Shown one piece after another: positions 1,372 to 51,554 of a DNA stretch of 64,000 nucleotides. The notes beneath the pieces are model-generated. The model was not told where the DNA came from. It ran no database searches and saw nothing but the letters and a program-made list of their open reading frames with translations. Source of the DNA: Sipunculus nudus (taxonomy: Eukaryota > Annelida > Sipuncula > Golfingiida > Sipunculidae); contig CM049318.1 of NCBI GenBank assembly GCA_026874595.1, positions 42,140,456-42,204,455 of the forward strand, read 5' to 3'. The translations under genes and the position numbers were made by a program. The stretch's first letter is position 1. Each line of letters starts with the position of its first letter.

Positions 1372-1890
1372 GACTTGTCTCCCCTTCCCTCCAGTCCCTT
1401 ATGGAAGTGCGTCCATGACATTTGCTTGGTCACGAGAATAATATTTACCGTAAATTATTTTCTGAAAATGTGAGGAAATCACTGGTAATTTCAGCTAAAT
1501 CCAATTTTCTGTAATTTTTGCACCGAGTGTATAGTACCCGGGGCATCGATGTATGTTTTTGCTGAATCAGCCAGGCTGAGGTAGAGATATGCATGCAGTT
1601 ATATAGGCCTAGTCAGTATATTCCACCCGGGCAGTGAAAATTTTTGATTGTTCTCTCGCACTTCAATATGTGTTTTACGTATAGATTCAGAATATTAGTT
1701 GGGATTTTATTTTCGTGGTTTTCGTGGATCATGGTAATTTCCGAATTCATGATTCCAGCGATAAAAAAAATCACACAGGCAGAAAATATCTCAACGACAG
1801 CAGGTGGTCGACTTCGTCTATGGTTATTATTTCTGTCTGAGTTTTCAATAAAGGTACAGAAATTGTTTATTATTATTTTACGATTGCAGT

Positions 1891-1892
<2 letters not shown>

Positions 1893-1940
<48 letters not shown>
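1893..1940. repeat. (TA)n microsatellite
   Basis: About 24 TA dinucleotides. An upstream short open frame runs into it and is not credible as a gene. Confidence 0.97.
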
Positions 1941-1942
<2 letters not shown>

Positions 1943-2639
1943 AGTGTGCTAAATTACTATTTGTGTAAAAAACTAAAATACGTGATTAATATGTTGTCAA
2001 TTCCATTATGTTCACTAATATCAGACAATTACTGCACCCTGAAATGTTTACAATAAAACAACTTCAAACTTTACTTTTAACTGAAAACATATCCTCATTT
2101 CCATTTTTCAACATTTCTGGTAAATAGTGTGTATGAGGATATGCAGATACTAATAAACCACGAATTCTCATTGTCTTTCCAGGAATTCAAATATCCCACG
2201 ATATGCGTTTTGTAAAAAAAAAAAGCCAACGATATTATCGGAGTCTACAGTATCTGACAGGTGGCCGTGAGCGGATAAAGAACTAACATGAAAATATCAG
2301 GCCAAGACCCATCATTTACTTATATTTTTTTTTCAATCTTGTAGAGTCACTCGGCACCAGTACTTTTAAGAATACATGTGGTTATGCTTTAATGTGCATG
2401 TGACCAATGGCATTGGTTTTCATCAACTGAATGAAAATGTTTTGAAATTTAGGACATTTCCTTATTTTTATTCCTGCAACATTCAACTTTGGTTTCATAA
2501 AATTAATTCATTAAGTTAATTAAGCCTGTACGACTGATTACTTTATTTCAGCCTACTATTCTAAACGTGTCTGCAAATTTATAAGAAAGAAATTATAAAA
2601 TTTCAAAGAGCATTTAATAAAGATTAAAATTTGACTTAA
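1941..2639. other. AT-rich DNA without visible genes
   Basis: Nothing recognised on either strand; short homopolymer runs only. Confidence 0.6.
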
Positions 2640-3110
2640 AAGCTGGCCCCATGATTCGCCAAAAATTGGTGAGGCTCCAGCCTGTCCTGCCCCACCGCTT
2701 CCGCTGGCTCTGAAATGACAAATGCGTGAGTTCTCATAGGCGCCGTGTGGGCCTCGTGGTAAGCCGTTTCGCGGCAACCACCGTAGTAGACCCCAGTAAA
2801 CCTCAGGTAAACCTACTCATGCCGCACTGGCACCCTGCCAGAGCCGGGATGACCGTACTGGCAACCTATTGGCGCCCTATTGGGGCCGAAGTAAAAGGTG
2901 GGTAATCGGCATAAAACGTACTATAACCCTATTGGAACCGTAAATAGCCCATAGGAGAACTAGAACCTTTGAAGGACCGTCAGTACAGAATTCAACCCGG
3001 GTTTAGAGTCAAAACCGTAAAAGAGGGGCACCCGGATGTGCCCGGGCTACCCGTGAATGCGTGACAGGGGCCTAACCTCAGCCTGCAAATCGGATTGTTT
3101 TCATATATAC
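2640..3110. repeat. GC-richer island, likely dispersed repeat
   Basis: It stands out from the AT-rich flanks. Inside are degenerate short motifs around CCTATTGG (2866, 2875, 2928) and a CCCGG-rich end. No open frame crosses it and no tRNA cloverleaf could be folded by eye. A decayed short element or SINE-like repeat is possible; the family is unknown. Confidence 0.35.
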
Positions 3111-5700
3111 CATTCAATTATAGGCGGCAAGCCTAAGCTGAAAATTTAATGAATATAAAAAATACTTTAACTTCATCAAAATTATAGCCGTTGTTCCAGT
3201 CAATAAGATAACAAAATGATGATGTAACACCTATGAATTTTAAATAACTGACTTAATGACTGAAGAGGCTGATTAATCATACCTTAAGGTGATTCAGAGT
3301 GCAGCAAAACTAAATTCTCCGTTTGTTAAGTTAATATGTAATTCTATACATGTGCATCCGTAATCTCTCTTGTAGGTCCTGCTAGAATATCGTTTTCCTA
3401 TGCGGTTCTGTTGAAATGCATTTTTTTAACAAACTATTTTATATAGGTCAAGCTGCCTGTATTATCCCAGTACCTGCTGTCCACATATGTAGTACATTGA
3501 TACATGTTTCCATAATATAAATATATTAAGTATTCAACACAGATTACGTGTTACTAGTCGTTTTATTTTTTTTTTTATTTTTATAAAATGCTTTTATCAG
3601 ATGAATAAGCATAATACTAAAATAACAATGTCCCCCCCCCCCCCTCTTTCAGTCATCACTATAATGACCATCATACCCCCCCCCCCCAACAAAGAAACAA
3701 AAAATTCATATTATATGTCAAAGATCTTGTACAGTTTATTATCAAATATAGATTGAAATATGTATTGAACCCGAACTTTTATCTTAATAGGAAATGGCTG
3801 ACATCACTGAAAATCGGACATGAAAACATTTTGATTGCTTTATCTGGAGCATGAATGAATATCTTTACACTTGAATGCTCTGAGCATCTCCTTAGAGTAT
3901 AAACATATATAACTTAGACATGCCTACAGGAAACCATCATTCCGATAATATAAATGTCCCTGATTTTTTTGTAAATATAAGTTTTATATAAGCAGCAGTT
4001 ATTGCAAGAGAAATATATGTAAATATACATAAGATGCATATAAATCGTGATCCGGAGTGTTTCCTATACGTATATTATCTGTATAGGGGTTATCCATTTT
4101 GAAACGTGTTTTATCCTCTTAAACTATAAATGATATGCATTATCAGCATTGAATCCCCTTAATATGGAATGAAACCCCTTAGCTCTATATAACATGCTCC
4201 ACCTAATACTATATGACATCTTATGTATAGACAATACCACGGTGGGAAAGGTTCAGGGGAATTACACCCTTATCAATCACAAGGTTAGAAGGTTTGCACT
4301 AAAAAAAATTAAAATACTGCGCACTTTTATGGGTTTTTTTCACAGAAGTTATTAAATATAAAATCGACCGCTGGCGCAAGCCCATCGGCCGATAATGGGT
4401 CGGATCGACCGAAAGCGCGTGACATATAAATATATATCAGCTAAAGTTTTCTTTTTTAGATTTTTTTTCGGGGGGGGGGCTTATTTCTATGGTTCACAAT
4501 ATAAGGGCAAGGAACCAATCATCTGTCTCTAGACATTTCCAAAAATGGTTACTTCTATTAATATCGTAACACCAACATTATGTTTAACTCTCTTGGAATT
4601 TTATGGTCAATGTTTTCATTAAGTAAATCTTTAGAATGAACTTTGAAAGGAAGGTTGCAACCATTTATATGCCAGTGCCAAATATCTGTATTAGTTTACT
4701 GTTTACTGTGTCCTGTGTAAGCATGTTGAGCATGACCCTTTATAACAGCAAAAACGGTCATTTTGGGATTCACCAAGGAAAGGTCTTTCAACGTAACCAT
4801 CAATCTTTAATTTTGGAGTGTTTGACTGCGATTCTTTAGAATTATATACTAATCCATCAAGTTTCTGGCTTAATTAAAGTTAAATCTCACCAGTGAGTTA
4901 ACCATCATTTGTTATGGAGACTTCTTTACCGCGTCATCTCAATTAATTACATCGTAACATGCGTCGCTATTTTTGTATTTATGTCACAATATGTTTACAA
5001 GTTGAAGTTTTAAGCCCGCATGTAAACGAAATCGCCCCGCTGTCCCCGGAACACCACCGATCAAAGTCCGCTTTTAAGCTTTTAAGCTTTTACGCTGCCA
5101 ATATCAACTGGCGAAGTTCAACACCAAGTTCGGTAGCTACATCTATGTTACACTGAGAGACAGGTCCTAATCTCACACTCTCTATAGACATCTCAAAGAG
5201 ACTATCGACACCGAGCAAGACATCATAACTGGAGTATCTCTCCAGTTCATTCACAATTCTCAAAAGACTCAAACGATGGCCTAACTCTGGTGTCTTTACA
5301 CTCAACGTTACAATTGTCTGATAGAGTCTGATTTCTTTATAAATATTCCGAAATTATGTATCAAATCCCGTGAATTAAATGCATTTTATTAAATTTTTTT
5401 TACAGACAAACATATTAACCCCCTTGACATTGAGACATTTGCTGATGTTTCATTGCATGTAAGTAGGGGTGGGTTTTAATACTAACTTCATGTGTTTACC
5501 CCCTCAAAATAGTTAAACCCTCCTGTACATGGCCTCTGAAAGTTGTGAGGTCGTGAAAAACGTTAAAGCCATCATAAAGCGAACTCCTGTTCAGGATACA
5601 AGGCTTACAAGGGTTGATGTGAGTGGCATCGTTGCTATGAGAACGACCCGCTTGGTAACATTCATGTATTCAGGTATTCCACACACGGACCTTCATGTCC
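3111..5700. other. Low-complexity, AT-rich DNA
   Basis: Contains two poly-C runs (about 3632 and 3676), a poly-G run (4470) and a small hairpin near 4380 (CCCAT...ATGGG). Short open frames at 4636-4839 and 4959-5305 show no domain, splice-site or codon evidence, so I call no gene. Confidence 0.55.
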
Positions 5701-5704
5701 TATG

Positions 5705-6445
5705 ATATTGGTCCGACAGCTCGGGGGAGTTTATTTATTTTTTTGAGTGCAAAAGGTTTATGGGTTGTTCCTATAGGAATAATATATGGGAAATTCGAAT
5801 CTGAAATTCTTATTAACCTATCGGTAGCCGTTTTCTCATAAAACAACTGAGAAGAGGAGTCCCCGTAGGTATGGAGGACACGAAATGTAAATCTCATGAA
5901 ATTAATATTTGGCGATTTCTCAGCTCACAAATGAAAAAAAAACAGGCTTTTGATATCAATACCTAAGTTTCTTATTCCAACAAACTTGGTGGTACTATTT
6001 ATAAATTTGTATTTCTGGCGGCCATTTTGAAATCCAAGATGGCTGCCATCAAAGTCATGTTTTGATTACCTTTTTCATAAATTTACTACTCTAATTTTCT
6101 CCTACAGTCTAAAAATAAATTAACCAAGCCTCAAAATAGCTTAAAACGACAAAGGATTATTTTGCAATAATTAATGCATGACCTTTCGATGTAAAGGTAA
6201 TATATTTATGACATTTATTATAAGAGGCACTGAGCGAGGAAAAAGGCATTTTCCCCTATTTCGACAAACTTTTCAATATTTGATTTTCCATTTATCCTTA
6301 CGCGTCTTAGGGTGACCAAATGCAAACACGGTATGTTTACCAGGAGCTGTCATAGAATTCAATATGGCACCTATAAAATATGTGCCAATAACAATGTTGA
6401 AAAGGTGCAATATATGTTTATTATGAGCATCTAAACACTTGACAC
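5705..6445 (+). repeat. Left long inverted-repeat arm
   Basis: It pairs with 9710-10480 in reverse orientation. Landmarks shared by both arms are GGCGGCCATTTTGAAATCCA, GAGGCACTGAGCGAGGAAAA and GAATTCAATATGGCA. Both arms carry small indels, so the copies are old. Confidence 0.85.
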
Positions 6446-6689
6446 AAGACTCTACTTGGAAGAACACTATTAATATATACTTTTATTTTACAAGTAGTTA
6501 ATAACTCGTGCAAGGCACTCTCTGTGGCTCCGATGTTAGCGTTCAGTAGACCGCAGGGTTGGAGGACACGGAGAAAACCACTATTGCCATACGTTAAATT
6601 GTCTGTTGTCATACGTTTGTCCTTTGCTATACTATTGTTAACCATTTGTCTGTTGATGTTAGCCATGAATACACAACTCAGTATGCATC

Positions 6690-7160
6690 TATATTATTTG
6701 GCTGGCAAGCCTAACTTGAGTCGTGATAGAAACGTTGCTTGGGAATGTACTGCTGCACTAACCTATCCTGTTGCGTTGATAAAACAGGATAAAAACCAAA
6801 AAGAATACGTGTGAACTCACGAACCAAATTGAAAGTCCGTATCTATGGTAACGAGTCATTTCCGGTATCGAGTACACGTTGGCTATCGTCCATTGCCCCG
6901 TGTGAGCCATGTGTGCATTCATGCGGTTAGAAATTAAACAAACATGTAAAGGGATTTACCAGAATGGTGAGTTAAATCGGAATTTTTCTCGCACATGGCA
7001 GATGTTCTTTGAAAGTATACTAATAACCTAATGCTTGGTCTGGTTTATGTGAAGCGAAAGGCAGCGTATACGTAAGCAATGAGGCTTTGTCATATATGTC
7101 GGAAATATTTGCATCCTCATAGCGCCTTACAGTGCGGTCCTGTAGGATGTAAAGGCCGAC
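6690..7160 (+). repeat. Dispersed repeat, inverted mate at 41.3-41.76 kb
   Basis: Blocks such as CTTGAGTCGTGATA, TCTATGGTAACGAG and GAAAGTATACTAA occur here and, in the same order on the opposite strand, at 41300-41760. It lies inside the long-inverted-repeat element and may be part of that family's interior. Confidence 0.65.
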
Positions 7161-7953
7161 ATGAGGGCCGATATGGCGCTACTGTAGATATGTGAACATT
7201 CCGTGCGATATCACAATGGGATTTGTAAATGAACAATGCTGTATTCAGCTATAATGTAAAGTGTAATCTTTAACTATTTCTCGAACAATTGCCAATCTGA
7301 CAAAAGTTAATGTAGAATAAACAGGTGCCCTGTAAATACTATATCTATCTTTATCAATTTATCTTTTTACTAATTAGAACAGCGAATGTTAATTCGAGTC
7401 CTCTTAATCAAAAATAAAATATTATTTTTTTATATTCTTAAGCATTTACAAGTTTGGTGAGCTTCAATAATAAGAACATATATGTCAAAAACTGTTTATG
7501 GTAATTGATGAATATAAAACAATTTGGCGTGCACTCTTGCTCCCTTTGTTATTACTTTTGTTGGTAATGCATAAAAGGAAACACATGCAAAATTTAGTCG
7601 GATCAATCTTCCTTAATTATATATTCAATATTAAGAAACTTGCAGTCTCCTCGGATGAAATTTCTATTTTTCCATTGCTTTTGTGAAGGCTATCTCAGTT
7701 TTCTTGATGAAATGACCCTTCATTGTCAGTAATTAGCTATGTTTCCTTGCCTTGAATTCACACGTTTTTTAACAGGCCTGCCCGTTACCATACTGACGCT
7801 ACATAGCTGATATATACGCAGAGGCTTTCCCTGGAGAATCGCCTGACATGGTAGAAGGCTGCTTGGGTTTACACAACGGATCTGTTCCAAAGGATCTTCA
7901 TGTTTCTTCTACTATATGCATTCCGTAACTTATACCAGTAAATGTATCAATGG

Positions 7954-8555
7954 CTAAAAGGACACCAGCTGGGATTCTCTTCCAGTTTGCCAAATGAATG
8001 TCAAAAACCCTTTGTTCTTCATCATTCGACCAAGAGCTTCCACTTTTCCTGTATTCACAAAGGAAACTTTCGATCCTGTGAATGCATGAAGAGCAGGCAG
8101 TGCTGATTTAACTGAATTATACATATTTGCCACAAGTCGTGATCTGTTGATATACCTCAGTGTGATTTTGGGGCTGAGACATTCAACCAAACGGATGAAG
8201 GGTGGTTATCAAACTGAGATACGAGATATAACAGGAGTATGAATACATCTGTGTCAGGACTTCTCAATGCTATGTTTGTGTAAAGAATACCCTGAATGTG
8301 ATACATAGTCCGAGTGCCTGCCTCTGCATGATGCCAGACAATGGTTGGGATATCTTCAGGGTGAATATTTCTATATTCGACAGCGGTGGAGTCTCTTTCT
8401 ATGATTTCAAAGTAAGTTGATGATCGTTCAACACATCCTTGTTGGCATGCTATGGCCACTCACCATGCAGAATGCAGTTTAAAGCTTTTTTCTGCCAATC
8501 TATGGTTCTGTTGAGAGCCTGTTGTTGTATGTGTAGAGTTACCTCTAGATTTAGA

Positions 8556-8603
<48 letters not shown>

Positions 8604-8814
8604 AGAGTTCAACGTCCTTAACTGAAGGAGTAAGGTAGGTGTCAAAGACCAAATTTATTTGAGGAGACATAGTGCAAAGCTTAACAAGTATCATCTCGGC
8701 TATCTCACTGTCGATCAATGTCTTCTTCTGGAGCGCCCGTTTATATAAATAATGTTCTAAAGTAGACCAGTAAAGGTTCTGACGTATTTGTCTATCCTTC
8801 AGCCAAAACATCAA
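7954..8814 (-). pseudogene. Remnant of a PIN/FEN-like nuclease-type protein gene
   Basis: Minus-strand fragments read in order. First is VFDTYLTPSVKD (near 8625). Next is a Q/W-containing stretch (near 8480). Then come AEAGTRTMYHIQG and RSPDTDVFILLLY (near 8330-8230), and LPALHAFTGSKVSFV (near 8080). I associate this order of VFDxY, EADTR, SPDTDV and HAFTGxD motifs with a dispersed protein family of unknown function in invertebrate genomes. Its spaced acidic residues recall PIN/FEN nucleases. The gene is dead: a TA microsatellite sits after the first motif, frameshifts and a stop separate the fragments, and EADTR has become EAGTR. The family and nuclease assignments are inference from motifs recalled and read by eye. 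Confidence 0.6.
8556..8604. repeat. (TA)n(TG)n microsatellite inside the pseudogene
   Basis: About 20 TA units followed by TG units, interrupting the minus-strand coding remnant right after its VFDTYLTPSVKD motif. Confidence 0.97.
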
Positions 8815-9709
8815 CTGAGAAGACCCTTTTCAGTGCAAACAGATATCTCTACTGCCTGTCGACTAGCAGAAATGTCCCAGGTGATATTAAGCTAGGTCTG
8901 CTTCATTGCTTCACAGGAAGTGGACACCAATGATGTGAGCAAATTCCGGATCGTTACTTAGCAAATGCCACAAGGTTTGAAATACCGAATCTTCAATCTT
9001 TGCATCTACAGCTGTGGTCTACTATCAATATAGAAACGAAGCTGGTCTAAATACGGGGCACAAGAAACTTATTTGGTCGTCTGCTCTGCCTCAGTGCTAA
9101 TTACTAAAATTGACCTGGAAAAGGTTTTCCCCCACCCACTGAGACCTTTTCCCCCACTCAATGACACGAGTGTCCCCTCCTAGGCATATTTGGATGGAAG
9201 TGTGAACAGTTCCTATACAAGATAGAGAACATGTTTGAAAATGAGGATCCACCAGCCGCACCTAATGTGCCTAATGTAGATGCTATGTTCATGCTCCTCC
9301 AATCCAATATCTGCCAAGTACCTATATTGTGAGTTAGCCCATATGATACTCGTCAAGCTTTACAGTATGCCTCTTCAAGTAGACCTGGGCTTTGACACAT
9401 ACATTACAGTTAAGGACATTGACCTTAATGAATGATCAGCAGGTAACTGTGCATATACAATGAAAGGGTCGTTTTGTTGCGATAATTCAGTGATTTGTGC
9501 ACTTCCTGCACTTTACAATTAATATACTTGTGCACTCTATGGAATGGACAAGTTAAGCAACATTAATGATGAGGAATGTTAAAGACTACACTTTACACGA
9601 TAGTTGAAAAAAAAAACAACTTTGTTCAGAAAACAATTCCATGGGATATGATACGGAAGGACCTAGACACAACAACTCACAGGTGTGTGAGAACTGCGCC
9701 CTTGCTATT

Positions 9710-10480
9710 AGAATCATCCTTGTGTCACCATGGCCAGTGTTTTTGAAGCTCATATAAAACATAGCGCACCTTTGTAACATTTTATTGTATATATTTAACG
9801 GTTGCCATATTGAATTCCAAAATGATTCAAGCAAATAATTGGTTGACCCAAACATTTAGGTATAGGCAACAACATAATGTTTCTTTGGCTTCTGGGAGCC
9901 ACAAAATGCCAAATATTGAAAAGTTTGTCGAAATAGGGGAAAAATGCCTTTTTCCTCGCTCAGTGCCTCTTGTATGTCATAAATATATTACCTTTTCATC
10001 GAAAGGTCATGCATTTATTATTGCTAAATAATCCTTTGTCGTTTTATACTATTTTGAGGCTTGGTTAATTTATTTTTAGACTGTAGGAGAAAATTAAAGT
10101 AGTAAATTGATGAAAACGGTAACCAAAACATGAATTTGATGGCAGCCATCTTGGATTTCAAAATGGCCGCCAGAGATACAAATCTATAAATAGTACCACC
10201 AAGCCTGTTGGAATAAGAAACTTAGGTATAGATACCAAAAGCCTGTTTTTTGTCATTTGTGAGCTCGGAAATCGCAATATATTAATTTCATGAGATTTAC
10301 ATTTCGTGTCCTTCATATCTAAGGTTACCCCTCTTTTCAGTAGTTTTATTAGAAAACGGCTACCAATAGGTTAATAAGAATTTTCAGATTCGAATTCCCC
10401 GTATATTTTTCCTATAGGAACAACCCATAAAACTTTTGCACTCAAAAACATAAACTCCCTCGAGCTCTCGGACCATATAT
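9710..10480 (-). repeat. Right long inverted-repeat arm
   Basis: Reverse-complement mate of 5705-6445. Apparent open frames at 9586-9855 and 9810-10031 overlap this arm and are not genes. Confidence 0.85.
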
Positions 10481-28999: not shown

Positions 29000-30094
29000 T
29001 GAGGAACTGGCATTTGCTAGTTTCATTAATATGCATCAGTGTCCTTAAAACCCAGAATCCGCCAGTACTTACTCTACCTTTCACAGAATACTTGAAAAGT
29101 AACATGGATTTAGAGAACTTCTGAGTCCAATAACACCCACAAATATCATAAAGTGTACAAAAATAAAGTTTATGTGGAATACGGAACAAAGAAACTGTCA
29201 AGTGTACCCCCCGTGATCAGGGTGTATTGTTATCCGGGACAATGAATCCAGCTTCTTCTACGTAATTTACGAGTCAGCTGTAGTAACCGAATGCTGTCAA
29301 ATTTGATTTTATGTTAAAGCAACGCCTACCTATGCTGATACTACAAAAAAAATGGCAAGGCGAGCTGGTGACGTCACATCAACTAAAAATGTATTTTTGC
29401 AAGACTGAATTACAGTATGCTCGTGAAAATATATAATATTCATTCACAAGGACATATAAACTTTGCATATTATATTTAAAGACATGCGTTTCTTTGAGAG
29501 GTGAATATTACAGTAACCTTCAAGGGGGGCTACTTTTTAGGAAGGAGAGGTTATCAATGTAATCATAGCTTTAATATTCAAAGAATAAAATTAATATACT
29601 CTAGGAGTTTACGGACTGGAGTATCATCTGAGAGTCTGGCCGTGTCGAATATTGCTGACGGGGGCATAAAACTCGCTGCTTAAGGGAACACAGAGATACC
29701 GTTGATAAGCCCAACGCTAATTGATACAGCGCAAGAGTCCCCCCTTCGGCGTGACATCGGAACAGCTCGTTAGTTCCCGGAGACCCCAAGCGTGAACGTT
29801 TTGGTACTTCCGGTAACGCGTATATCCCTTTTTTGTTGCCCGTGACAGAAACTGCAGGGGAAACCCCGTCTGTAAACTCCTTGATATACTGGAAAGAAAA
29901 ATATCAGTATTTTAGACTGATGGACGTTGGTTCATTTTCTCCTTTTCGGAGTTAAATACTATTAATACTTAAATAATTATATATATAACATCTATAGGTC
30001 TATACAGAAAAACGTCCTTACTAATCAAGTTTTTCCATTATATGGAGTCATGCCCCCGATAAATCGACGCCACCGATAACCTTCCCACTGAAAA
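29000..30094. other. No gene recognised
   Basis: Unique-looking DNA. Open frames at 28995-29201, 29501-29683 and 29601-29789 show no domain or splice support. The 29690-29830 stretch is GC-richer than its surroundings. Confidence 0.45.
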
Positions 30095-33000
30095 CCGGTA
30101 TCTCTGACACCCGGTATCTCTGACACCCGGTACGTCTGACATCCAGTACCTCTGACACCCATTACCTCTGACAACCACACCCATTACACCAGGTACCTCA
30201 GATACCAAGTATCTCTGACACACAGTACCTCTAACACCCAGTACCTCTGATACCCAATGTCTCTGACTCCTGGTACCTCTGGCAACTGCTACCTCTTACA
30301 CCGGGTACCTCTGACACAGTACCTCTGACAGCCGGTACCTCTGACACCTAGTACCTCTGACACCAGGTACCTCTGACACTTGGTACCTCTGATACCCGGT
30401 ACAAATAACAACTGATACCTCATACACCGGGTACCTCTGACACACAGTACCTCTGACAGCCGGTACCTCTGACACCTAGTACCTCTGACACCAGGTACCT
30501 CTGACACCTGGTACCTCTGATACCCGGTACAAATAACAACTGATACCTCATACACCGGGTACCTCTGACACACAGTACCTCTGACAGCCGGTACCTCTGA
30601 CACCTAGTACCTCTGACACCAGCTACCTCTGACACCTGGTACCTCTGATACCCGGTACAAATAACAACTGATACCTCATACACCGGGTACCTCTGACACA
30701 CAGTACCTCTTACAGCCGGTACTTCTGACACCTAGTACCTCTGACAGCCGGTACCTCTGACACCAGGTACCTCTGACACCAGGTACCTCTGACACCAGGT
30801 ACCTTTGATACCCGTTACATCTGACACCTAGTACCTCTGACACCAGGTACCTCTGATACCCGGTACATCTGACAACTGATACATCTTACACCTGGTACCT
30901 CTGACACCTAGTACCTCTGATACCCGGTACTTCTGACAACTGCTACCTCTTACACCCGGTACCTCTGACACCCAGTGCCTCTGACACCCGGTATCTATAG
31001 CAACTGCTACCTCTTACACCGGGTACCTCTGACACCCAGTACCTCTGACACCCAGTACATCTGACACCAAGTACCTCTTACAACCAGCACCTCTGACACC
31101 CGGTACCTCTGACAACTGATATCTCTTACACCCGGTACCTCTGACACCCGGTACCTCTGACACCCGGTACCTCTGACAACCAGCACCTCTGACACCCAGC
31201 ACCTCTGACACCCGGTACCTCTGACAACTGATATCTCTTACACCCGGTTCCTCTGAATCCCAGTCCTTCTGATACCTGGTACTTCTGAGACCCGGTACCT
31301 CTGACACCCGGTACCTCTGACACCCGGTACCTCTGACACCCAGCACCTCTGACACCCTGCACCTCTGACACCCGGTACCTCTGACAACTGATATCTCTTA
31401 CACCTGGTTCCTCTGAATTCCAGTCCTTCTGATACCCGGTACTTCTGAGACCCGGTACCTCTGATACCCGGTACCTCTGACACCCGGTACCTCTGACACC
31501 CAACACCTCTGACACCCGGTACCTCTGACACCCGGTACTTCTGAGACCCGGTACCTCTGACACCCGGTACCTCTGACACCTAGTACCTCTGACACCCGGT
31601 ATCTCTGATACCCGGTACCTCTGACATCCGGTACCTCTGACACCCGGTACCTCTGACACCCGGTACCTCTGACACCCGGCACCTCTGACATCCAGCACCT
31701 CTGACACCCAGTACCTCTGACACCCAGTACCTCTGACACCCAGTACCTCTTACACCCGGTACCTCTGACACCCGGTACCTCTGACACCCGGTACCTCTGA
31801 CACCCAGTACCACTGACACCCGGTACCTCTGACACCCGGTACCTCTGACACCCGGTACCTCTGACACCCGGTACCTCTGACACCCGGTACTTCTGAGACC
31901 CGGTACCTCTGACACCCGGTACCTCTGACACCCGGTACCTCTGACACCCGGTACCTCTGACACCCGGTACCTCTGACACCCGGTACTTCTGACACCTGGT
32001 ACCTCTGACACCCGGTACCTCTAAAACCCGGTACTTCTGAGACCCGGTACCTCTGACACCCGGTACCTCTGACACCCGGTACCTCTGACACCCGGTACCT
32101 CTGATACCCGGTACCTCTGACACCCGGTACCTCTGACACCCGGTACCTCTGACACCCGGTACCTCTGACACCCAGCACCTCTGACACCCAGCACCTCTGA
32201 CACCCGGTACCTCTGACAACTGATATCTCTTACACCCGGTTCCTCTGAATCCCAGTCCTTCTGAAACTGGTACTTCTGACACCCAGTACCTCTGACACCC
32301 GGTACCTCTGACACCCGGTACCTCTGACACCCAGTACCTCTGACACCCGGTACCTCTGACACCCGGTACCTCTGACACCCAGTACCTCTGACACCCGGTA
32401 CCTCTGACACCCGGTATCTCTGACACCCGGTACCTCTGACACCCGGTACCTCTGACAACTGATATCTCTTACATCCGGTTCCTCTGAATCCCAGTCCTTC
32501 TGATACCCGGTACTTCTGACACCTGGTACCTCTGACACCCGGTACCTCTGATACCCGGTACTTCTGAGACCCGGTACCTCTGACACCCGGTACCTCTGAC
32601 ACCCGGTACCTCTGACACCCAGCACCTCTGACACCCGGTACCTCTGACACCCGGTACCTCTGACAACTGATATCTCTTACACCCCGTTCCTCTGAATCCC
32701 AGTCCTTCTGAGACCCGGTACCTCTGACACCCGGTACCTCTGACACCCAGCACTTCTGACACCTGGTACCTCTGACACCCGGTACCTCTGACACCCAGTA
32801 CCTCTGATACCCGGTACTTCTGAGACCCGGTACCTCTGATACCCGGTACCTCTGACACCCGGTACCTCTGACACCCGGTACCTCTGACACCTGGTACCTC
32901 TGACACCCGGTACCTCTGACACCCGGTATCTCTGATACCCGGTACTTCTGAGACCCGGTACCTCTGACACCCGGTACCTCTGACACCCGGTACCTCTGAC

Positions 33001-34048
33001 ACCCGGTACCTCTGATACCCGGTACCTCTGACACCCGGTACCTCTGACACCCGGTACCTCTGACACCCGGTACCTCTGACACCCAGCACCTCTGACACTC
33101 AGCACCTCTGACACCCGGTACCTCTGACAACTGATATCTCTTACACCCGGTTCCTCTGAATCCCAGTCCTTCTGATACCCAGTACTTCTGACACCCAGTA
33201 CCTCTGACACCCGGTACCTCTGACACCCGGTAACTCTGACACCCAGTACCTCTGACACCCGGTACCTCTGACACCCGGTACCTCTGACAACTGATATCTC
33301 TTACACCCGGTTCCTCTGAATCCCAGTCCTTCTGATACCCGGTACTTCTGACACCCGGTACCTCTGACACCCGGTACCTCTGATACCCGGTACTTCTGAG
33401 ACCCGGTACCTCTGACACCCGGTACCTCTGACACCCGGTACCTCTGACACCCAGCACCTCTGACACCCAGCACCTCTGACAACCGGTACCTCTGACAACT
33501 GATATCTCTTACACCCGGTTCCTCTGAATCCCAGTCCTTCTGATACCCGGTACTTCTGACACCCGGTACCTCTGACACCCGGTACCTCTGATACCCGGTA
33601 CTTCTGAGACCCGGTACCTCTGACACCCGGTACCTCTGACACCCAGTACCTCTGATACCCGGTACTTCTGAGACCCGGTACCTCTGACACCCAGTACCTC
33701 TGACACCCAGTACCTCTGACAACCGCTACCTCTAACACCTGGTACCGCCGACACTCAGTACCTCTGACACCCAGTACCTCTGACACCCGGAACCTCTGAG
33801 ACCCGGTACTTCTGAGACCCGGTACCTCTGACACCCAGTACCTCTGACACCCATTACCTCTGATACCCGGTACTTCTGACACCCGGTACCTCTGACACCC
33901 AGTACCTCTGACACCCAGTACCTCTGACACCCAGTACCTCTGACAACCGCTACCTCTAACACCTGGTACCGCCGACACTCAGTACCTCTGACACCCAGTA
34001 CCTCTGTCACTCGGTTGCTCTGACTCTCGTACCTTCGGCAACAACTAC
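30095..34048 (-). repeat. 16-bp minisatellite (GGTACCTCTGACACCC), about 245 units, with higher-order structure
   Basis: Nearly 4 kb of 16-bp units, most holding a KpnI site GGTACC. Between about 30290 and 30720 the units form a 128-bp (8 x 16) higher-order repeat marked by GGTACAAATAACAACTGATA at 30399, 30527 and 30655. From 31.1 to 33.5 kb a second marker, CTGATATCTCTTACACC then CCTCTGAATCCCAGTCC, recurs at spacings of about 164-240 bp. Long minus-strand open frames (up to 481 codons of RYRVSEVPGVRGTGCQ) arise because the minus-strand unit has no stop in any frame; they are not genes. Confidence 0.98.
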
Positions 34049-34526
34049 CATGGCTACCACGAATATCACGACCACCCAAGTACCTCGGCCGCCATGGTAA
34101 CACGGCCGACCCGGATTTACGCCATTCCCAGTGTCTTGAGAACCTTTGTGACAAATTGACATGCATGTAAACTGACACGCCACCAACTAGGGCAAGTCTA
34201 TATTTCTCAGTCTGTCGTATTGCTGGCATTTCACTCTATGTTTTAGGTGAGATATTTGTCGTCGGTTGCGTCCTTTAATAATACACTGTTATGAATCATT
34301 TAAAACAAGCCACAACCAAACACTACTGAACTAGAACTGCAGCCAGCATGGTCTATTTCTCTTGTATAATGCATATCTATCCCGGCGGCCACCGGCGTGT
34401 CAGTTTATCACTTGTTTCAGATGGATGGGGAGCTATTAAAAACAAGTTTCCCAAACAAAAGCAGCAATATATATCCTGATCTGGGTGACTCAGGCTGTTG
34501 ACTCTCGGGAGGCCAGCTCAGCTTAC
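34049..34526. other. Spacer between minisatellite and candidate exon
   Basis: Unique-looking DNA; no feature recognised. Confidence 0.45.
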
Positions 34527-40956: not shown

Positions 40957-41792
40957 TTACTGAGTCGGGTTGTATCACGGCTAGCCATGAAGTACGGCCG
41001 GATTTCATATTTCTTATGCGTGAAGACAGCGTGTAGAATAATCATTTCAGCCTGAACTGTTGTTTGAGTCGTAATATACTACTGGAACCGACAATATTAT
41101 ATATATATATTGGGTGTAGCTATATTTGTATGTGTAGCTGTAGCTCTGTAAGATCGATCCTTTCCATTCATCCAGATTTAAAACTGGAATAATTTTTACT
41201 GAAATCTGTATGTGGATTATAGGACCTAGCCATTTCGCCCCTCTGACATTAAAGAGTCTACGACCAGCTCACTGGCTTTCAGAGTGCCGTTACCTCCTTC
41301 AGCTAGGAATGCACTATAAGGCTATATGACGATGTAATTATATTCGTCATATCTGGCAACGCCTCATGCATGGCCTACAGGTACACTGTCAATTGACATA
41401 AACCCAACTAATCGCTAGCTCTTTTAGTATACTTTCTAACAATACCAAATATGAGCGAGAAAAGTTTCAATTTAACTCAGCATATTGGTAAACCCCTCCG
41501 CATGGGTACAGGCATGGCTCGCACTTGTTACTAGACGCAGCCAACTTGACGGCGATATAGGAAATGGCTCGTTACCATAGACACGGAGTTTCAGTTTTGG
41601 TTGTGTTTTCTCTTGTATTTATTCATCATTCGTAACCCATTGTTAAGAGTATGGGCTCATTTACCACAATATAGATGCAACATGATGGAAGACCACCGCG
41701 ATGCATTCCTCGATATTGCTTGTATCACGACTCAAGTAGGCTTACAAGCCTAATTATCAGTGCCTACTGAGTCGGGTTGTATCACGGCTAGC
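40957..41792 (+). repeat. Segment bounded by a 27-bp direct repeat
   Basis: ACTGAGTCGGGTTGTATCAC plus GGCTAGC occurs at 40959 and again at 41766. The region between contains the dispersed repeat shared with 6690-7160. It may be a tandem duplication or an insertion. Confidence 0.65.
41300..41760 (-). repeat. Dispersed repeat, inverted mate of 6.7-7.16 kb
   Basis: Shares blocks in the same order as 6690-7160 on the opposite strand, including CTCGTTACCATAGA and TATCACGACTCAAG. It may be a relic of a sister copy of the long-inverted-repeat element. Confidence 0.65.
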
Positions 41793-48830: not shown

Positions 48831-51554
48831 TTGTTGAGAATGCCACACCAAGCCAAGCGTAAAAGGGTTCAAGACGCCTTCCCGGGTCAGCTCCAGAACA
48901 CCTCGCACCGGGTCCAAGAAACAAAGTCGGACGAGAAAAAAGAGCAGCAGCAACCACGCCCACTCCATACAGAACATCTGTACACCACCTTCACCCTCAC
49001 AACCACGCCCACTCCATACAGAACATCTGTACACCACCTTCACCCTCACAACCACGCCCACTCCATACAGATCATCTGTACACCACCTTCACCCTCACAA
49101 CCACGCCCACTCCATACCGATCGCCTGTACACCACCTCCACCCTCACAACCACTCCCGCTCCATACCGATCACCTGAACACCACCTTCATCCTCACAACC
49201 ACGCCCGCTCCATACCGATCACCTGTACACTACCTTCACCCTCACAACCACACCCACTCCATACCAAACACCTGTACACTACCTTCACCCTCACAACCAC
49301 GCCCACTCCATTCCAAACACCTGTACACTACCTTCACCCTCACAACCACGCCCACTCCATTCCAAACACCTGTACACTACCTTCACCCTCACAACCACGC
49401 CCACTCCATACCAAACACCTGTACACCACCTTCACCCTCACAACCACGCCCACTCCATTCCAAACACCTGTACACTACCTTCACCCTCACAACCACGCCC
49501 ACTCCATACAAAACACCTGTCCACCATTTCACCCTCACAACCACGCCCACTCCATACCGATCACCTGTACACCACCTTCACCCTCACAACCACACCCACT
49601 CCATACCAAACACCTGTACACCACCTTCACCCTCACAACCACGCCCACTCCATACCGATCACCTGTACACCACCTTCACCCTCACCACCACACCCACTCC
49701 ATACCAAACACCTGTACACCACCTTCACCCTCACAACCACGCCCACTCCATACAGAACACCTGTACACCACCTTCACCCTCACAACCACACCCACTCCAT
49801 ACCAAACACCTGTACACCACCTTCACCCTCACAACCACGCCCATTCCATAGAGAACACCTGTACACCACCTTCACCCTCACAACCACGCCCACTCCATAC
49901 CGATCACCTGTACACCACCTTCACCCTCACAACCACACCCACTCCATACCAAACACCTGTACACCACCTTCACCCTCACAACCACGCCCACTCCATACCG
50001 ATCACCTGTACACCACCTTCACCTTCACAGCCACACCCACTCCATACCAAACACCTGTACACCACCTTCACCCTCACAACCACGCCCACTCCATACAGAA
50101 CACCTGTACACCACCTTCACCCTCACAACCACGCCCACTCCATACCAAACACCTGTACACCACCTTCACCCTCACAACCACGCCCACTCCATACCGATCA
50201 CCTGTACACCACCTTCACCCTCACAGCCACACCCACCCCATACCAAACACCTGTACACCACCTTCACCCTCACAGCCACACCCACTCCATACCAAACACC
50301 TGTACACCACCACCCTCACAACCACGCCCACTCCATACCGATCACCTGTACACCACCTTCACCCTCACAGCCACACCCACTCCATACCAAACACATGTAC
50401 ACCACCTTCACCCTCACAACCACGACCACTCCATACAGAACACCTGTACACCACCTTCACCCTCACAGCCACACCCACTCCATACCAAACATCTGTACAC
50501 CACCTTCACCCTCACAGCCACACCCACTCCATACCAAACACCTGTACACCACCACCCTCACAACCACGCCCACTCCATACCGATCACCTGTACACCACCT
50601 TCACCCTCACAGCCACACCCACTCCATACCAAACACCTGTACACCACCACCTTCACAACCACACCCACTCCATACAGAACACATGTACACCACCTTCACC
50701 CTCACAGCCACACCCACTCCATACCAAACACCTGTACACCACCTTCATCCTCACAACCACGCCCACTCAATACCGATCACCTGTACACCACCTTCACCCT
50801 CACAACCACGCCCACTCCATACCGATCACCTGTACACCACCTTCACCCTCACAGCCACACCCACTCCATACCAGACACCTGTACACCACCTTCACCCTCA
50901 CAGCCACACCCACTCCATACCAAACACCTGTACACCACCACCCTCACAACCACGCCCACTCCATACCGATCACCTGTACACCACCTTCACCCTCACAGCC
51001 ACGCCCACTCCATTCCAAACACCTGTACACCACCTTCACCCTCACAACCACGCCCACTCCATACAGAACACCTGTACACCACCTTCACCCTTACAACCAC
51101 GCCCACTCCATACCAAACACCTGTACACCACCTTCACCCTCACAACCACGCCCACTCCATACCGATCACCTGTACACCACCTTCACCCTCACAGCCACAC
51201 CCACTCCATACCAAACACCTGTACACCACCTTCACCCTCACAACCACGCCCACTCCATACCGATCACCTGTACACCACCTTCACCCTCACAACCACGCCC
51301 ACTCCATACCGATCACCTGTACACCACCTTCACCCTCACAGCCACACCCACTCCATACCAAACACCTGTACACCACCTTCACCCTCACAGCCACACCCAC
51401 TCCATACCAAACACCTGTACACCACCACCCTCACATCACGCCCACTCCAAACCAAACATCTGTACACCACGTTCTCCTTCACAACCACGCCCACTCCATA
51501 CTGAACATCTTTACACCACCTTCACCCGCATACAGACAGCGCAGCCTTGCCTAA
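48831..51554 (+). CDS. 907-codon open frame, probably a repeat artefact
   Basis: A short non-repetitive start (MPHQAKRKRVQDAFPGQLQN, then SDEKKEQQQ) leads into repeats of PTPYxTPVHHLHPHNHAHS and the two other frame readings. The 49-bp unit has no plus-strand stop in any frame, and 49 is one more than a multiple of three, so the peptide unit is 49 residues by arithmetic. Single-base deletions (near 49525) do not close the frame, so its openness is no sign of selection. Only the 40-residue start might be genuine coding. Confidence 0.12.
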   Translation: MLRMPHQAKRKRVQDAFPGQLQNTSHRVQETKSDEKKEQQQPRPLHTEHLYTTFTLTTTPTPYRTSVHHLHPHNHAHSIQIICTPPSPSQPRPLHTDRLYTTSTLTTTPAPYRSPEHHLHPHNHARSIPITCTLPSPSQPHPLHTKHLYTTFTLTTTPTPFQTPVHYLHPHNHAHSIPNTCTLPSPSQPRPLHTKHLYTTFTLTTTPTPFQTPVHYLHPHNHAHSIQNTCPPFHPHNHAHSIPITCTPPSPSQPHPLHTKHLYTTFTLTTTPTPYRSPVHHLHPHHHTHSIPNTCTPPSPSQPRPLHTEHLYTTFTLTTTPTPYQTPVHHLHPHNHAHSIENTCTPPSPSQPRPLHTDHLYTTFTLTTTPTPYQTPVHHLHPHNHAHSIPITCTPPSPSQPHPLHTKHLYTTFTLTTTPTPYRTPVHHLHPHNHAHSIPNTCTPPSPSQPRPLHTDHLYTTFTLTATPTPYQTPVHHLHPHSHTHSIPNTCTPPPSQPRPLHTDHLYTTFTLTATPTPYQTHVHHLHPHNHDHSIQNTCTPPSPSQPHPLHTKHLYTTFTLTATPTPYQTPVHHHPHNHAHSIPITCTPPSPSQPHPLHTKHLYTTTFTTTPTPYRTHVHHLHPHSHTHSIPNTCTPPSSSQPRPLNTDHLYTTFTLTTTPTPYRSPVHHLHPHSHTHSIPDTCTPPSPSQPHPLHTKHLYTTTLTTTPTPYRSPVHHLHPHSHAHSIPNTCTPPSPSQPRPLHTEHLYTTFTLTTTPTPYQTPVHHLHPHNHAHSIPITCTPPSPSQPHPLHTKHLYTTFTLTTTPTPYRSPVHHLHPHNHAHSIPITCTPPSPSQPHPLHTKHLYTTFTLTATPTPYQTPVHHHPHITPTPNQTSVHHVLLHNHAHSILNIFTPPSPAYRQRSLA
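48952..51526 (+). repeat. 49-bp minisatellite, about 52 copies
   Basis: Unit close to AACCACGCCCACTCCATACC plus AAACACCTGTACACCACCTT and CACCCTCAC. Variant sites (GCCACACCC or ACCACGCCC; CAAACACC, CGATCACC or AGAACACC) recur in patterned order, so multi-unit blocks have been copied. A 46-bp variant lacking CTT occurs at least five times. Confidence 0.98.

Follow-up and report, generated by a model that had tools for sequence, protein, structure and literature searches.

A decayed transposon copy in the genome of Sipunculus nudus, probably a fold-back derivative of an AcademX-type element

We analyzed a stretch of 64,000 nucleotides of the Sipunculus nudus genome (assembly GCA_026874595.1, contig CM049318.1, positions 42,140,456 to 42,204,455), hereafter the window, and found in it one element copy of 4767 bp (5709-10475) with inverted arms of about 735 bp, flanked by TAT on both sides. 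Probably, this copy is dead and non-autonomous, and descends as a fold-back derivative from an AcademX-type cut-and-paste DNA transposon. An initial annotation, made from the letters of the window, had placed at 5705..10480 an element with two inverse arms 3.3 kb apart around one minus-strand remnant of a PIN/FEN-like gene, and had proposed that its enzyme was a nuclease instead of a classical transposase. The arms align with 84% identity over 761 columns (91% in the outer ~580 bp) at a spacing of 3.3 kb, as it had described; the element itself stood, and its exact ends had to be moved to 5709 and 10475, with TAT just outside. The corrected ends agree with those of the relatives. In addition, a 23-base end pattern (≤3 mismatches) occurs in the window at the two element ends only and in none of the shuffled sequences. 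No match was obtained in an Rfam scan of the window.

The host genome (1.43 Gb, 153 contigs) contains copies that support the mobility of the element. Window positions 5600-6600 used as query gave at least 48 matches (40 of 600 candidates were scored), and many of them pair as plus and minus ends a few kb apart. We retrieved 19 stretches, corresponding to 17 other places, which are a part of the arm-bearing places among the matches listed; those left out include C16:5758819-5777657, two at C17:30.84-30.85 Mb, C4:47441139, C11:57853432, C11:37402510, C7:8500780, C1:57347428 and C6:36016660, this list not being exhaustive. Window-like interior accompanies the arms in 16 of the 17 places, the exception being L021, and in L025 the shared interior is only the first ~840 bp; the query itself held ~160 bp of interior, which biases the sample toward interior-sharing copies. 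The copies have a common terminus, TGGTCC(G/C)AGAGCTCGGGGGAGTTTA, with small changes among them and a damaged left end in L017. A genome scan with the 25-bp terminus (≤2 mismatches) gave 37 matches, 17 forward and 20 reverse, which fall in about 25 places as read by eye from the list, and the backward control gave none. Among the 13 copies read at both ends, ten have an exact 3-bp target-site duplication (TSD), namely TAT, TAA, AAA, CAT, TTA, AAT, CTG, AAG, ATA and TGA. When the sister elements described below are included (four of six exact) the count rises to 14 of 19; four other registers yield 1-2 of 19, and 4-bp matches 1 of 19. These counts were made with the right border shifted one base to the common terminus in L014, L015 and the C7 copy, both borders shifted in L055, and the left border of L017 set by eye; L023-L027, read at one end only, stand outside the 13 copies, and the sister set was taken without L050, whose ends could not be defined, L056, which is cut at the left, and L051, which has no inverted pair. 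Shared borders, the exact TSDs and the 37 termini against a control of zero thus bear out the earlier inference of a mobile element. The interior is partly palindromic too, which would also fit a local inverted duplication or unrelated repeats around a captured gene, but the copies are dispersed, have the same borders amid different flanks and carry TSDs, which already refutes such an immobile structure; local duplication was rejected on these grounds, and we give this explanation practically no weight.

Three further observations concern related copies. Window positions 41286-41790 hold a decayed, inverted fragment matching the element interior (6804-7156 at 67% and 6660-6731 at 77%), which is probably the remnant of a related copy. 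The 10.6-kb copy on C7 (L018) has an insertion at ~1800-7250 with open reading frames (ORFs) reminiscent of a Harbinger transposase, a nested transposon. Beside the copy in L022, a tandem repeat at 3-2030 is open over 676 codons and encodes HPAFMLYWNHTSF repeats.

Between the arms, the window copy contains pieces of a FEN-like nuclease half. The minus-strand remnant consists of three pieces in order, spread over two frames, and a TA microsatellite lies at 8556-8594 within it, between the VFDTY and EAGTR pieces. Two pieces on the plus strand were also found (Table 1). The first of them was recovered by tblastn with the protein of the sister element L048 (E 0.002 and 0.22 in a search space of 811 bp), and the region co-linear with it in L009, L010 and L016 gives plus-strand profile matches at i-E 8e-4, 2.5e-4 and 0.008; the second aligns inverted with 8606-8708 at 77% over 103 columns (E 6e-16). 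The initial annotation was therefore right about minus-strand gene pieces and not about a single remnant. Likewise, its VFDxY and SPDTDV motifs stand, and what it read as EA(D)TR and HAFTGxD is EAGTR and HAFTGSK, against EADTR and HAFTGCD in the sister proteins. The window copy thus lacks two motif Asp and has a broken frame as well, and by comparison with the sister proteins its acidic metal-binding residues are not intact.

A similar arrangement was found in other copies when six-frame translations of 18 sequences (the window element plus 17 stretches) were searched with a nuclease-half profile. It gave 39 matches, 16 of them at i-E ≤0.05, in 10 sequences, and reversed decoys gave five, none ≤0.05. 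Profile parts 161-398 lie on one strand, read outward to the left end in the orientation of the window, and parts 68-204 and 381-463 lie on the opposite strand, read outward to the right end; matches on two strands occur in L011, L012, L013, L014 and L016. Inner inverted pairs beyond the arms are also general, with at least one in each of the 11 elements examined (~90 to 1000 bp, 62-80% identity; the right end of L026 was set arbitrarily in this survey), and in L009, L010 and L014 the DNA beside the right arm matches window 7207-7812 in inverted form, in whole or in part. In this sense, we interpret the interior as pieces of the nuclease half that lie inverted and head-to-head, which would make the element a fold-back derivative. 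Because the interiors of L010, L014, L016 and L026 are co-linear with that of the window through the centre, and L010, L014 and L016 have TSDs of their own, it is most likely that the palindromic derivative itself moved.

The gene and the arms also go together across the genome. The 100-aa piece of the window has matches (E ≤0.001) at 22 places, and 18 of these matches (16 places including the window) lie within ~3 kb of a listed arm match, in support of the pairing that had been proposed; four do not. No intact nuclease of the window family was seen, since none of the 22 places has an open frame longer than 173 aa. Arms without the gene, which had been named as evidence that would speak against the pairing, occur in part: L021 (1.9 kb) has the arms, lacks the nuclease half and carries a Cys/His-rich open frame of 187 aa, while 16 of the 17 places share both arms and interior. 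A profile of the N-terminal and middle parts matched L021 only, by construction as L021 had been included in building it, and decay could mask weak traces elsewhere.

The frame of L021 connects the window family with sister families that encode long proteins. It resembles the N-terminal part of the L048 protein (34%, E 1.5e-16), and its 39 matches in the genome are located in the sister families. An inverted-repeat pair is present in eight of the nine sister stretches retrieved, that of L053 being just ~100 bp at 77%, and the sister elements are about 4.3-7.7 kb long. In L048, one stop lies between two frames of 881 and 536 aa, which encode in order a Cys/His N-terminus, a middle with HFSWDNFD, TFDLAVVMKA and TIEET, and a C-terminal half in which VVDSNA, VTDTY, EEADTR, SPDTDV and HAFTGCD occur. 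The middle blocks of the sister proteins are of DNFD, TFDL and TIEET type, with the exceptions of L054 (TFAL) and of L052 and L046 (DNLN). When the half from L053 was used as query, at least 78 matches were obtained in the genome (75 of 708 candidates were scored), many of them in long open frames. From its Asp/Glu blocks, we infer that the middle region may be a DDE transposase-like domain. Since in L048 and L053 the FEN-like part forms the C-terminal half of a longer protein, the nuclease seems to be one domain of that protein and not a substitute for the transposase. The proposal of a nuclease acting instead of a classical transposase is not supported by the sister proteins, whose first part, with Cys/His motifs and Asp/Glu blocks, looks transposase-like.

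Whether this C-terminal half is FEN-like was addressed with several searches. Its acidic motifs follow the order IIDG, VFD.Y, EEAD, DDTD and G.D, then a G-G/R-G-K loop, the catalytic mapping having been made by eye; FEN nucleases have such an order of acidic motifs, with G.D followed by a G-K loop. The likeness to FEN/XPG nucleases such as E. coli Xni, the PolA 5' nuclease and T7 gp6 lies in the motif order; sequence similarity is weak, and the domain differs from them in that, in L048 and L053, it makes up the C-terminal half of a long protein of a transposon. Pfam, NCBIfam and PHROGs searches with the window pieces and the sister proteins gave a single match above chance level, that of the NCBIfam flap endonuclease Xni to L053 (E=1.5e-4), one of five nuclease-half proteins. 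With the same model genome-wide, the L053 element and a near copy rank first on the contigs below C58 (E 0.04 and 0.06). PDB sequence searches gave only chance-level matches, tblastn in phages and plasmids found nothing relevant, and one or two peptide patterns, used to scan viral and prokaryote contigs, gave no relative. FEN homology is statistically weak, and the motif order fits it. Apart from the element, contigs C61, C62, C66, C69, C71, C72, C75, C89, C90, C91 and C94 contain PolA-like proteins that match a bacterial family model, mostly as open frames of 956-983 aa. They suggest that the host assembly includes several bacterial genomes related to one another, perhaps of symbionts.

As regards classification, TSDs are described as 3 or 4 bp in AcademX and 9 or 10 bp in AcademH, and this difference is linked to the encoded nuclease or helicase (PMC10045372). 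Academ elements are described as amplified in bivalves, with a mean length of 5565 bp (PMC10294476). The duplications found here, of 3 bp, fall within the AcademX range of 3-4 bp (PMC10045372), and so far as these published descriptions go the inverted ends and the comparable element length are alike as well, as is probably the nuclease-like gene. The window copy differs from AcademX in being non-autonomous and palindromic inside, with no transposase half seen. AcademX is known for a nuclease of XPG type. AcademH would belong to the same superfamily if our assignment is right, and it differs by its helicase and its 9-10 bp TSD (PMC10045372), while here the TSD is 3 bp and the Pfam scans gave no helicase. 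Long, partly palindromic arms around a non-autonomous middle are also shared with the fold-back elements FB and Galileo, but here the inner arms carry FEN-like gene pieces. FB and Galileo belong to other groups. Among the papers listed in our literature searches, none was seen that links Academ and XPG with regard to transposons. Taken together, AcademX is the most likely home of the element, which looks like a new family of a known, little-studied kind.

Several results weigh against this reading. The TSD is not exact in L009 and L011 (one base off each) and in L022 (no match), and an exact one is absent from two of the six sister elements (L048 and L053). Nuclease-half matches at i-E 0.05 are found on both strands in L016 only, those of L011-L014 being weaker on one strand, and the profile has no match in L017, L021 and L025. 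No autonomous member of exactly this family was found. NCBIfam had no match for four of the five nuclease-half proteins, neither Pfam nor PDB sequence searches returned a FEN/XPG match, and the hhalign comparisons were weak: score 16.8 and E 0.23 against E. coli Xni, PolA and T7 gp6, and score 18.8 and E 0.095 in a second one, with seven controls at 11.9-16.0. The predicted fold of the 100-aa piece of the window was uninformative (pLDDT 46). Besides, the comparison with Academ was made through published descriptions.

An alternative that we regard as unlikely, though worth keeping in mind, is a transposon with terminal inverted repeats from an undescribed superfamily outside Academ, in which the FEN-like domain would be the main strand cutter and the middle region would not be a DDE transposase. 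No library matches any part of the proteins except for the one weak FEN match, the DDE interpretation depends on Asp/Glu blocks that vary in L054, L052 and L046, and the FEN-like half is retained in many long open frames, all of which would agree with it. Nevertheless, the 3-bp TSDs, inverted ends, length and putative nuclease fit the AcademX/Academ descriptions, as far as the published accounts used here extend. Strand transfer is not known as an activity of FEN nucleases. Much less probable, indeed very improbable, is a PIF/Harbinger-type element that acquired a nuclease-like gene. It would share the TSD length of 3 bp, and the ORFs of L018 are reminiscent of a Harbinger transposase; however, these ORFs sit in several kb of DNA by which the interior common to other copies is interrupted, the sister proteins differ in kind, with no Harbinger gene noticed in their long frames, and only two of the 14 exact TSDs are TWA (TAA and TTA), for which PIF/Harbinger membership was rejected.

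A possible origin, in line with an AcademX-type ancestor, may be outlined as follows. The sister-type long protein would be Cys/His-rich at its N-terminus, DDE-like in the middle and FEN/XPG-like, as a nuclease, at its end. Its transposase would act on inverted ends of ~735 bp, with excision and then insertion at 3-bp staggered cuts, and its nuclease half would probably trim flaps, hairpins or branched ends from the long inverted arms. An ancestor may then have retained only DNA of the nuclease half, in head-to-head inverted pieces, giving rise to a fold-back element which would have been mobilised in trans to many places and later decayed. The window copy would have moved in trans, if at all, because it has no trace of the transposase part and has lost two Asp of the nuclease motifs. 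Later, the outer ~580 bp of its right arm may have been replaced by left-arm-type sequence and the nuclease motifs lost. A bolder version, which we find doubtful, is that the FEN-like domain would be a working part of transposition that opens or trims hairpins of the long ends, so that palindromes of the nuclease half would be good substrates and spread, the fold-back lineage descending from a nuclease-fused transposon.

The change in the right arm is suggested by a comparison of arm types across copies. L009, L010, L011, L014 and L017 have two distinct arm types, 76-80% identical to each other and 87-93% to the nearest arms elsewhere. The two window arms are 92.5% identical, and neither exceeds 87.7% with any other arm in this comparison, and the nearest relatives of the right one are the left-type arms L015_R and L024_R. 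Because the right arm is nearest to left-type arms and the two window arms are closer mutually than to others, it seems that left-type sequence has overwritten the outer part of the right one. The arms of L012 and L013 are likewise similar (90%).

Table 1. Features of the element copy in the window (coordinates of the window).
Feature	Position	Strand	Basis
Left TSD copy (TAT)	5706..5708		Flank reading; border comparison with relatives
Left terminal inverted repeat, first bases TGGTCCGACAGCTCGGGGGAGTTTA	5709..6439	+	Arm alignment; border common to relatives
Internal DNA from left arm to gene remnant, common to other copies	6440..7998		Copy comparison
FEN-like half, profile 343-398, ...LHAFTGSK..., which has lost the motif Asp	7999..8160	-	i-E 3e-4
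FEN-like half, profile 279-330, HAEAGTR ... SPDTDVF	8208..8354	-	i-E 4.7e-4
FEN-like half, profile 169-200, VFDTY piece NLVFDTYLTPSVKD	8608..8706	-	i-E 0.056; inverted repeat with 9329-9425
Upstream part of FEN-like half in opposite orientation, IRGTRNLFGRLLCLS ... IDLEKVFPHPLRP	9039..9147	+	tblastn of L048 protein
Copy of VFDxY segment, LGFDTYITVKD	9329..9425	+	Inverted repeat of 8606-8708
Right terminal inverted repeat, last bases ...GAGCTCTCGGACCA; outer part like left-type arms	9736..10475	-	Arm alignments
Right TSD copy (TAT)	10476..10478		Flank reading; border comparison with relatives

Elsewhere in the window, two tandem arrays were found. One at 30085-34049 has a G+C-rich unit of 16 bp in ~246 copies, with long open frames on the minus strand, and is probably a satellite and not a gene. 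The other, at 48951-51530, has a unit of 49 bp in ~53 copies and lies inside a plus-strand open frame of 908 codons.

The window itself contains an ordinary decayed transposon copy. Its relatives tie the proteins with EADTR, SPDTDV and HAFTGCD motifs, for which our scans gave no Pfam model, to inverted-repeat transposons in most of the sister stretches. Scattered proteins formerly without a known function may thus be considered as a testable two-part enzyme, with a transposase-like region and a FEN-like nuclease. Additionally, the copies suggest a route by which a palindromic derivative may spread without a transposase of its own.

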